43,817 nucleotides of DNA, from contig JAGXFZ010000017.1 in the NCBI GenBank assembly GCA_024637055.1, positions 1 to 43,817 of the forward strand, read 5' to 3'. Positions within the stretch are counted from its first letter, which is position 1. Every line of letters starts with the position of its first letter. Source of the stretch: Gracilibacter sp. Its GTDB lineage: Bacteria > Bacillota > Desulfitobacteriia > Desulfitobacteriales > Syntrophobotulaceae. Shown in pieces: positions 11,698 to 14,762 of the stretch. Made by a program: the position numbers and the translations under genes. The notes beneath the pieces are model-generated. The model ran no database searches and was not told where the DNA came from. It worked only from the letters and a program-made list of their open reading frames with translations.

Positions 11698-11958
11698 ATG
11701 GAAGTATTAAAAGTAGCTGCAAAATCTAATCCTAATTCTGTAGCTGGAGCTTTGGCAGGAGTTATAAGGGAAGAGGGGAAGGCAGAAATGCAGGCAATTG
11801 GTGCAGGGGCGCTCAATCAGGCAATTAAAGCAGTGGCTATTGCCAGAGGGTTTGTAGCTCCCAGCGGGATTAACCTTGTTTGTATTCCAGCCTTTGTTGA
11901 TGTGGAGATTGACGGGGAAGAGAGGACTGCAATAAAATTAATTATTGGGCCTCGTTAG
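11698..11958 (+). CDS. spoVS: Stage V sporulation protein S
   Basis: This 86-residue protein has the same length as known SpoVS and the same Alba-like pattern: VLKVAAKSNPNSVAGALAG, GAGALNQAIKAVAIARGF, and a C-terminus ending KLIIGPR. The start at 11698 is chosen because AGGGGGAT lies just upstream and the product matches family length; a longer frame starting at 11635 only overlaps the XRE gene. SpoVS is a small nucleic-acid-binding protein needed for proper sporulation and coat assembly in Bacillus. Its placement directly after an XRE regulator gene is unusual. It supports the view that the organism makes endospores. Confidence 0.95.
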   Translation: MEVLKVAAKSNPNSVAGALAGVIREEGKAEMQAIGAGALNQAIKAVAIARGFVAPSGINLVCIPAFVDVEIDGEERTAIKLIIGPR

Positions 11959-12032: not shown

Positions 12033-13142
12033 ATGACAAGTGAAACGCTTATTATTTCACGGTTTAAAAGAATGAGGACCAGAATCATTAAGGCTTGTGA
12101 AACTGTTATCAATACAAGAATAGTACCCGAAAACGAACGTTTGGATAGTGCGCCATTGCTATACTTGGAATGGCCATTATCTGTTCCTAAGCCGTTTGTT
12201 GCTCTAGTCAAATCACAACGAGGGACTAGCGCATACTGGCCAAAGTTTGAACGGTTTCTTAAAGCAAATGATATTCCTTATAAAGAACTTGATATTAAAG
12301 CTTCGAGTTTCATATCCGAATGCAAGGATTTTGATATTGTCGCTTGGAGAACTTTATCAACTTATGTTGATCAGTGGGAGGCGGCGGATAAAGTTGAGTT
12401 CATTCAGGAATACCTTGGAAAAATGATTTTACCACCGCGACAAGCCCTGTGGTTGGACGAGGATAAAATTAGAGCACAATGGGTGCTTGAGTTAAACCAG
12501 CTTCCGGTTATAAACACTTTTATATCATACTCCAAAGAAGAAACAGAAAACTATATTGAAAGTTGCCAATATCCTTTTATATCAAAAGAGAAAACTTGTT
12601 CGAGGTCTGAAGGTGTTCAATTGATAAAAAACAAGAGTCAAGCAAGAAAACTTGTCAGACAAGTATTTAATGGTGGCTTGAAACTTAATAATTCATATGT
12701 TAAACAGAAGAACTATGTATATTTTCAGGAATTTGTACCAAATAAAGGTTTTGATCTCAGAGTAATTATGGTAGGAAATTCATACTTTGGTTATTATAGG
12801 TTCCCTAAAGCTGGTGATTATAGAGCTTCTGGTTCAGGAATAGTTACCAAAAAAGATATACCATTAGAAGTATTGCTATTAGCTAAGAAAGCACGTGAAT
12901 GTCTACCTAAGTCGTATTTGTCAGCGGTTGACTTCTTACAGGATACGCGTGATAACAAATTTTATATTATAGAGACATCAAGCTTTATTAGTATAGAATC
13001 TTGTGAACAACTAGTTGTAGACGGTGTAGCGGGACGGCATGTTGAACAAGATGGAGACTTCACTTTTGAGCCAGGTCGTTTTTGGGTTGAAGAGCTTATG
13101 ATGCAAGAATTAATGAAAGATTGGATTACGAAAAACTCATAA
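12033..13142 (+). CDS. ATP-grasp domain ligase
   Basis: This 369-residue protein has an N-terminal pre-ATP-grasp part (about residues 50-130) and an ATP-grasp fold. Visible features are DEDKIRAQWVLELNQLPV (central start of the domain), YPFISKEKTCSRSEGVQLI (the first ATP-binding lysine region), VYFQEFVPNKGFDLRVIMVG, YRASGSG, and a metal-binding end FYIIETSSF. ATP-grasp enzymes join a carboxylate, activated as an acyl phosphate, to an amine or thiol. The stop is 14 bases before the start of a carboxyethylornithine-synthase-like gene, so the ligase probably uses that product or its precursor. The specific substrates are not known. Base composition is AT-rich compared with much of the window. The ATG follows AAGGAAAATCAGCATA. 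Confidence 0.8.
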   Translation: MTSETLIISRFKRMRTRIIKACETVINTRIVPENERLDSAPLLYLEWPLSVPKPFVALVKSQRGTSAYWPKFERFLKANDIPYKELDIKASSFISECKDFDIVAWRTLSTYVDQWEAADKVEFIQEYLGKMILPPRQALWLDEDKIRAQWVLELNQLPVINTFISYSKEETENYIESCQYPFISKEKTCSRSEGVQLIKNKSQARKLVRQVFNGGLKLNNSYVKQKNYVYFQEFVPNKGFDLRVIMVGNSYFGYYRFPKAGDYRASGSGIVTKKDIPLEVLLLAKKARECLPKSYLSAVDFLQDTRDNKFYIIETSSFISIESCEQLVVDGVAGRHVEQDGDFTFEPGRFWVEELMMQELMKDWITKNS

Positions 13143-13156
13143 ACGAGGAGCAATAT

Positions 13157-14179
13157 ATGATGAAAAGTATGGGGTTTTTAATCAGCACAAAAGAAAATGA
13201 AAAAAGAAGAGCATTGTTACCGGAACAAGTAAGTAGTATTAAGAATAAAAGCTGTTTATTTTTTGAAAAAGGTTATGGAGACGTATTAGGATATACAGAT
13301 GCAGATTATATTAGGCAAGGCGCTAATATATTATCTAAACAAAAAATTATTAAAAAAGATATTATTTGTGATCCAAAGATAGGAGATGCTGACTACCTTT
13401 TGCAACTAAAAAAAGATCAAACTATTTTTGGTTATGTTCATGCCGTTCAAAATAGAGATATTACAGATAAAATAGTTAGTAAATCGTTAACCGCAATTGC
13501 GTGGGAGGAAATGTATGATAGCGGCAGACATATTTTTTGGAGAAATAATGAACTTGCTGGAGAAGCAGCTATCATGCATGCGTTTATATTATACGGAAGG
13601 ATGCCTTATGAATGTAAAGTTGCGTTAATCGGAAGGGGAAATATTGCTCGTGGAGCATATAGAATATTATCTTCTTTGGGTGCTGAAATAGTTGTCTATG
13701 ATAGAAAAATGGAATGTTTATTAAGAAAAGAAATTGCTGATTATGATGTCATTATAAATGCTGTTTCATGGGATACTCTGAGGGAAGATCACGTAATTTA
13801 TAGTGAAGACGTAAGAAATATGAAAAAAAACTCAATGATTATCGATATTAGTTGTGATAATTCTGGATGTATTGAAACGAGTGTACCGACAACCATTGAG
13901 GATCCAGTATATTTTGCCAAAGGTGTATTACATTATGTGGTTGACCATACGCCAACGTTGATATTCAATACAGCATCAAAGGTATTCGGCAGTGTACTTG
14001 TTGAGTATATTGATGATATTATTGAGGGCAATACTGAAAGTAATACAACGATAAAAAATGCAACGATTATAAATAAGGGTATTATCCTTGACCCCAAAAT
14101 TGTAAACTTTAACAAAAGATCAATTGGTGTGAGAACAAGGTCCAGTGGATTGGCAGCCGTTGTAGGTGGCCTTGAGTGA
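13157..14179 (+). CDS. N5-(carboxyethyl)ornithine synthase homologue (alanine dehydrogenase/PNT fold)
   Basis: The 340-residue product starts with GFLISTKENEKRRALLPEQV, typical of the alanine dehydrogenase / transhydrogenase N-terminal domain and close to the Lactococcus carboxyethylornithine synthase as I recall it. A nucleotide-binding motif GxGxxxxG is seen in LIGRGNIARGAYRIL, followed by the acidic end VVYDR. That enzyme reductively joins pyruvate to the side-chain amine of ornithine with NADPH, giving an opine-like amino acid. Start 13157 (or ATG 13160) is chosen for the GAGGAG at 13145-13150; an upstream frame start at 13121 lies within the ligase gene. A strong hairpin follows the stop at once. 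The family call is good; substrate identity (ornithine, lysine or other) is inferred. Confidence 0.75.
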   Translation: MMKSMGFLISTKENEKRRALLPEQVSSIKNKSCLFFEKGYGDVLGYTDADYIRQGANILSKQKIIKKDIICDPKIGDADYLLQLKKDQTIFGYVHAVQNRDITDKIVSKSLTAIAWEEMYDSGRHIFWRNNELAGEAAIMHAFILYGRMPYECKVALIGRGNIARGAYRILSSLGAEIVVYDRKMECLLRKEIADYDVIINAVSWDTLREDHVIYSEDVRNMKKNSMIIDISCDNSGCIETSVPTTIEDPVYFAKGVLHYVVDHTPTLIFNTASKVFGSVLVEYIDDIIEGNTESNTTIKNATIINKGIILDPKIVNFNKRSIGVRTRSSGLAAVVGGLE

Positions 14180-14216
14180 GAATAGGTGAATTCGTCCGCG
14201 AATTCACCTATTCTTT
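14180..14216 (+). terminator. Terminator of the ATP-grasp / CEOS unit
   Basis: A perfect 14-bp stem, GAATAGGTGAATTC (14180-14193) with GAATTCACCTATTC (14200-14213), starts right at the stop codon. The T stretch after it is weak (TTTGC), so termination may be partial. Confidence 0.7.
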
Positions 14217-14316
14217 GCAAGAAAGGGCCATTAGGTTATATATTAATGTTATATTGAACTAATTTAGCTATTGACCATATAAAAGAAATCTAAAGCTTCG
14301 TGGAGTTGAAATAAAA

Positions 14317-14762
14317 ATGAAAGAAAACGCAAAAGGGTTACAAGTTACCCGCAGAAGGTTCCTAAGGCTGGCTTGTCTTGCTGGTATTGGCTTATCTGCA
14401 CCGGTATTAGTATCTTGTAGTTCTAAAGATCAGATAATTCCGCTAAAATTGATCGGGTACAGGGGATATAACTATATGAATGAACTTCACGGCTCTCCCA
14501 ATATGAGAAAGATGATTAAAGATGATTGCTGAGATAAACTTAGCTTATCAACCTGATTTTGTCCTCATGGATGGCTATCTTAAAGGATCTTGGAAGCAAT
14601 AAGACGATTATGAAGACACCAATCTTCCAACATGAACAAATATCTAGGGCTGTGGAATTGGGTCTTGGTGTTTCCATTCCGGAAGAGATTGAAATTATCT
14701 CAGATGATTCGAAGGGAGAGGAGTATGGACGGCGGTTACATGAGATTATAAGAAGCAGTTAA
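14317..14762 (+). pseudogene. Tat-exported DUF362-like protein, degraded
   Basis: The first 71 codons encode a twin-arginine signal (RRRFLRLA) with a lipobox-like VLVSC, then sequence that stops at 14532. In a shifted frame the stretch IAEINLAYQPDFVLMDG continues, as expected for a DUF362 domain, and stops again near 14602. A third stretch (14559-14762) holds IFQHEQISRAVELGLGV, like the C-terminus of that family. Much of the middle of an intact protein of about 300-400 residues is missing. I infer at least one frameshift plus a large deletion. DUF362 proteins are often Fe-S proteins of unknown role. The family call rests on motif recall. Confidence 0.6.

Follow-up and report, generated by a model that had tools for sequence, protein, structure and literature searches.

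Alanine dehydrogenase and the N5-(carboxyethyl)ornithine synthase (CEOS, EC 1.5.1.24) of Lactococcus share one protein fold, and the Lactococcus enzyme is NADPH-dependent. Ligases of the LysX/ArgX type, which belong with RimK to one ATP-grasp family, join the amine of an amino acid to the carboxyl group of a larger partner. A Gram-positive precedent for amino acids on a surface polymer is the teichuronopeptide of alkaliphilic Bacillus, in which they are carried by a cell-wall uronic acid polymer and to which TupA has been linked. The O-antigen of Providencia rustigianii O14 contains N-epsilon-[(S)-1-carboxyethyl]-L-lysine in amide linkage to galacturonic acid (PMC10609480). A survey of Proteus O-antigens assigns ugd and gla, and its main text names no carboxyethyl-lysine enzyme (PMC5560731); our literature search found no genes assigned to the carboxyethyl-lysine (alaninolysine) residues of O-antigens. 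The gene pair described here encodes a ligase and a reductase of these families, and such enzymes would be expected both to form the P. rustigianii O14 residue and to link it in place. From sequence comparisons we tentatively propose that the pair is a mobile two-enzyme module that makes an opine-type amino acid and attaches it, most likely to a surface polysaccharide; we regard this as a serious possibility, somewhat short of probable.

The two genes lie in a 43,817-nucleotide stretch of Gracilibacter sp. DNA (contig JAGXFZ010000017.1), referred to below as the window. Both are intact open reading frames on the plus strand. The mechanically called frame of gene 2 begins within gene 1, at TTG 13121. 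A ribosome-binding-like GAGGAG stretch precedes ATG 13157 (or the next ATG, at which the homologues of gene 2 begin), and the gap to gene 1 is therefore 14 bases, as the original prediction stated. The single hairpin said to close the operon was also found: its stem of 17 bp is perfect, with a folding energy of -28 kcal/mol and a z-score of -6.6, none of 200 shuffled sequences folded as well, and it occurs only once within the window. No Rfam match was obtained in the window or around the related pairs described below, and no sporulation-sigma consensus was matched upstream of the pairs. Just downstream of the hairpin, positions 14316-14700 hold an apparent gene remnant that begins with a Tat-like signal and is interrupted by stops, which suggests that the region has been rearranged.

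Features of the gene pair and of related loci (positions without a prefix are those of the window; L numbers denote loci in other genomes)
Feature	Position	Strand	Description
spoVS-like gene	11698..11958	+	directly upstream of gene 1; PF04232, 3e-39
Gene 1	12033..13142	+	RimK/LysX-type ATP-grasp carboxylate-amine ligase, 369 aa, ATG start
Gene 2	13157..14179	+	AlaDH/transhydrogenase-fold reductase, NNE-x-AG / DHTP type, 340 aa; start perhaps 13160
Hairpin closing the operon	14178..14214 (about)	+	terminator-like, weak T tract
Inverted-repeat regions	L040:6461-6760 and L036:11410-11709		no Rfam match

Both genes are AT-rich, as had been claimed. Their third-position G+C contents are 0.29 (gene 1) and 0.24 (gene 2), compared with 0.36-0.41 in the unrelated neighbours checked and 0.53-0.58 in two genes at 30-32 kb, far above both. 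The count of 11 G/C in the 60 bases at 13321-13380, which had been offered in support, is exact, but the window has 12 places with a 60-mer of equally low G+C, and the count alone is therefore no evidence.

The assignment of gene 1 to the ATP-grasp ligases was borne out by a match to PF08443 (RimK) of 8e-10, with 39.1 bits against a gathering score of 21. Gene 1 fell below the NCBIfam cut-offs of the narrower families, scoring 61 against 143 bits for the RimK subfamily (rimK_fam) and 58 against 276 bits for the LysX equivalog. The best solved relative in a profile search was 3vpb/3vpc (6e-16), whose record is titled 'putative acetylornithine deacetylase' and which we take to be a LysX/ArgX-type ATP-grasp chain, followed by LysX itself (1uc8/1uc9, 1e-8). 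The conserved lysines, arginine, aspartate and glutamate of the family are kept, and a serine stands where ATP-grasp enzymes usually have a metal-binding asparagine. Gene 1 differs from the LysX, ArgX and RimK ligases in its long N-terminal extension, and no gene for a LysW-type carrier was found among the adjacent open reading frames.

Gene 2 matched both Pfam domains of the alanine dehydrogenase fold (AlaDh_PNT_N, 4e-16; AlaDh_PNT_C, 6e-26), again as predicted, and thus has the whole two-domain architecture of that enzyme. It scored only 102.2 bits against the alanine dehydrogenase equivalog TIGR00518, far below the cut-off of 391.85. In a tree that included alanine dehydrogenases, Lactococcus CEOS and other relatives, the alanine dehydrogenases formed a separate clade (support 100/100) with gene 2 outside it. 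The remainder of the tree comprised three types: that of the window, that of Lactococcus, and a third from an E. coli plasmid and chromosome, Streptomyces and two further genomes of our set (G133 and G293). Sister grouping of the window type with this E. coli type received a support of only 67/36. The window and Lactococcus types were not grouped in the best tree, and their grouping was not rejected (p 0.34).

These enzymes can also be told apart by motifs. Alanine dehydrogenases carry PMSE-x-AG and N-M/I-P, and Lactococcus CEOS carries NSFYAG and PNTP, whereas NNE-x-AG together with DHTP or DHSP is common to the window and E. coli types, G072 being the sole variant; in gene 2 the letters are NNELAG and DHTP. 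The cofactor loop of gene 2 reads VVYDRK, with an aspartate, where Lactococcus CEOS has MYYRK, and this aspartate suggests the use of NADH. Gene 2 resembles Lactococcus CEOS in its length (310 aa in CEOS), in its position outside the alanine dehydrogenase clade and in lacking two insertions of alanine dehydrogenase. The original prediction that gene 2 is closest to CEOS therefore stands in placing it with CEOS-like proteins and apart from ordinary alanine dehydrogenases. As to Lactococcus CEOS itself it holds only loosely: gene 2 is no closer to that enzyme (31% identity) than to the type found in polysaccharide clusters (33%), and departs from it in two conserved motifs as well as at the position that governs cofactor specificity. 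On its sequence, gene 2 appears to be neither an ordinary alanine dehydrogenase nor a plain CEOS, and has motifs of its own. The NNE-x-AG/DHTP signature is shared by the window and E. coli types in spite of an overall identity of 31-33%, which suggests that they act on a common substrate.

Gene 2 could instead encode a divergent dehydrogenase that forms an unusual amino acid from a 2-oxo acid and ammonia and so supplies the ligase. The catalytic positions of alanine dehydrogenase are kept (R17, K74, H95 and D234, mapped on the alanine dehydrogenase row of the alignment), the aspartate of the NAD site is as in alanine dehydrogenase, and a tree with the gene 2 type and alanine dehydrogenase on one side of a branch was not rejected (AU p 0.26). 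These catalytic residues are shared across the superfamily, however, and so do not single out alanine dehydrogenase; the well-supported separate clade, the replacement of both of its motifs and the missing insertions speak against this explanation, and we consider it improbable. More improbable still is a logic like that of PylC and PylD, in which the ATP-grasp enzyme would join two amino acids and the dehydrogenase would then oxidise the product, perhaps with ring closure. The pairing of an ATP-grasp enzyme with a Rossmann dehydrogenase is the same, and gene 2 has a weak match to PylD (E 0.016), but that match is limited to the Rossmann part of a protein with the full two-domain architecture, and both E. 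coli-type and CEOS relatives of gene 2 occur without a ligase. Structure models of the two proteins, built from one or two input sequences each, were unusable (mean pLDDT 33 and 35).

The original prediction depended on the pair being conserved in other genomes, and this was found to be so. Among 299 genomes of the phylum, close relatives of gene 2 (49-77% identity) were present in five further genomes, all from other families. Gene 1 lay immediately upstream in three of the five, G047 (78/77% identity), G116 (60/75%) and G080 (64/74%; its gene 2 is cut by the contig end), so that the pair keeps its gene order in three genomes, which represent two other families, at 60-78% identity; the relatives in G156 and G072 were without gene 1. 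In 40 sampled genomes of the Gracilibacter genus, family and order, gene 1 gave only weak ATP-grasp hits, and within the order gene 2 gave hits only at the level of ordinary alanine dehydrogenases. A gene 1 profile scan of genome contigs yielded one relative, in the same MAG as G080 (Bacillota Soudan_17). A search of phage records with gene 2 gave only distant matches (<25% identity), and relatives of either gene were not found in viral contigs.

Comparison with G047 gave a dN/dS of about 0.17 for each gene, which indicates purifying selection. Synonymous divergence from a relative of a different family was moderate, at 0.7-0.8, and this, together with the low third-position G+C and the patchy distribution, points to horizontal transfer of the pair. 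The upstream neighbour of the pair in the window, sought for an empty-site comparison, had no match in six relatives. A link to sporulation was considered on the grounds of the spoVS-like gene 5' of the pair in the window and of a SpoIIP-like gene (read from ORF starts) after the pair in G047, and was dropped because the neighbours of the pair differ between genomes. The spoVS-like gene was not seen around the pairs of G047 and G116, and the Gracilibacter genome has a second copy (G000:C57:155-412), 81% identical to that of the window.

In G116 and G080 a small Phd/YefM-like protein is encoded upstream of the pair (loci L036:11653-11934, minus strand, and L040:5938-6219, plus strand), and in G133 a 64%-identical protein upstream of a lone E. 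coli-type reductase (L064:13415-13696, minus strand); this protein may have a regulatory role connected with these reductases. The regions upstream of the G116 and G080 pairs also have in common an inverted repeat with the arms GGCACTTACGAT and ATCGTAAGTGCC.

More diverged pairs were found in E. coli. On plasmid NZ_AP027746.1 the pair (31% identical to the window for gene 1 and 31-33% for gene 2) is flanked on one side by a WecA-like transferase and on the other by a Wzx-type flippase. Downstream are genes for glycosyltransferases, an EpsG-type polymerase, a GalE/TviC-like epimerase and UDP-glucose 6-dehydrogenase, and a near-identical cluster is present on a second E. coli plasmid. Three E. 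coli chromosomes carry a pair that is 71% identical in DNA; in each of the two examined, an island beside tRNA-Phe contains the pair along with a flippase and a fragment of a TupA-type ATP-grasp gene. These E. coli pairs (NZ_AP027746.1, NZ_JCAPTY010000003.1 and NZ_CP148570.1) agree with that of the window in their families, gene order and NNE-x-AG and DHTP motifs, and differ in their low identity, their capsule- or O-antigen-like surroundings, a longer reductase of 371 aa and the absence of the cofactor-site aspartate. In the plasmid examined, Lactococcus CEOS has no ATP-grasp neighbour, in contrast to gene 2.

Relatives of gene 1 with 37-40% identity were found in the Firmicutes G133, G188, G213 and G251, in each case without an adjacent gene 2 and beside glycosyltransferases, flippases, a TupA ATP-grasp gene or an epimerase. 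As three of these four genomes belong to one genus, the associations with polysaccharide genes number about three to four independent cases, which by estimate rather than computation exceeds the chance expectation from the share of such genes in a genome. E. coli-type reductases without a ligase occur in G293, G133 and on a Streptomyces plasmid, as close gene 2 relatives do in G156 and G072, and the reductase product may therefore have a use of its own. The clusters of G133, G188 and G213 (L054, L056 and L057) also hold, around the ATP-grasp gene, related genes of about 268 aa whose products start ..PPARPSKEM.. and look methyltransferase-like by eye, with at least two copies in G133 and in G213.

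The original prediction envisaged a free opine-dipeptide, osmolyte or metal ligand. If gene 1 coupled the carboxyethyl amino acid from gene 2 to a small amine or amino acid, a soluble opine-dipeptide would result, and among PDB entries the ATP-grasp L-amino acid ligases BL00235 and BacD are indeed distantly related to gene 1. The close pair, moreover, stands alone in all four Firmicute carriers: no glycan genes adjoin it in the window, G116 or G080, nor in G047, where a FemX-like gene and MurE-like frames (read from ORF starts) lie some 4-6 kb away. However, the nearest relatives of gene 1 that lack a gene 2, and the diverged pairs, sit in polysaccharide clusters or beside their remnants, and apart from the Phd/YefM-like gene of G116 and G080 no transporter, resistance or regulator gene accompanies the pair. 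We therefore consider a free small molecule rather unlikely; the surroundings of the relatives favour a role in modifying a polysaccharide.

For attachment to a surface polysaccharide, the reaction would run as follows. Judging by its fold and relatives, the gene 2 enzyme would carry out an NAD(P)H-dependent reductive condensation, in which a 2-oxo acid (pyruvate being the likeliest) would condense with a diamino acid, for instance lysine or ornithine, at its side-chain amine, and the resulting imine would be reduced to an N-(1-carboxyethyl)-diamino acid. The gene 1 enzyme, in the manner of LysX and RimK, would use ATP to activate a carboxylate and form an amide bond with an amine. Since relatives of both genes lie inside polysaccharide clusters, the sugar coat of the cell is the most likely target, and in those clusters a uronic acid is the obvious amide partner; the new amino acid would most likely be joined, through its alpha-amine, to a uronic acid carboxyl group, either in a surface polysaccharide or in a precursor of one. 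Points that weigh against this scheme are the lack of glycan genes next to the close pair, the reductases that occur without a ligase, the suggested use of NADH by gene 2 where Lactococcus CEOS takes NADPH, and the serine of gene 1 at the metal-binding position.

A wider proposal is that an undescribed subfamily of opine-type synthases, with a dedicated ATP-grasp partner, makes N-(carboxyethyl)-diamino acids and joins them by amide bonds to surface glycans in anaerobic Firmicutes and Enterobacteria, spreads between phyla as a two-gene cassette, and supplies the missing genes for carboxyethyl-lysine in O-antigens. Taken as a whole this is doubtful, if worth stating. Annotation pipelines label the reductase family inconsistently: in two E. 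coli loci (L059:12983-15099 and L042:11040-13116) RefSeq names members of the one family 'alanine dehydrogenase' and 'N(5)-(carboxyethyl)ornithine synthase'. The pair provides a candidate enzyme for each step of O-antigen decoration of the carboxyethyl-lysine type, and suggests that such decoration of glycans may extend to the Firmicutes.
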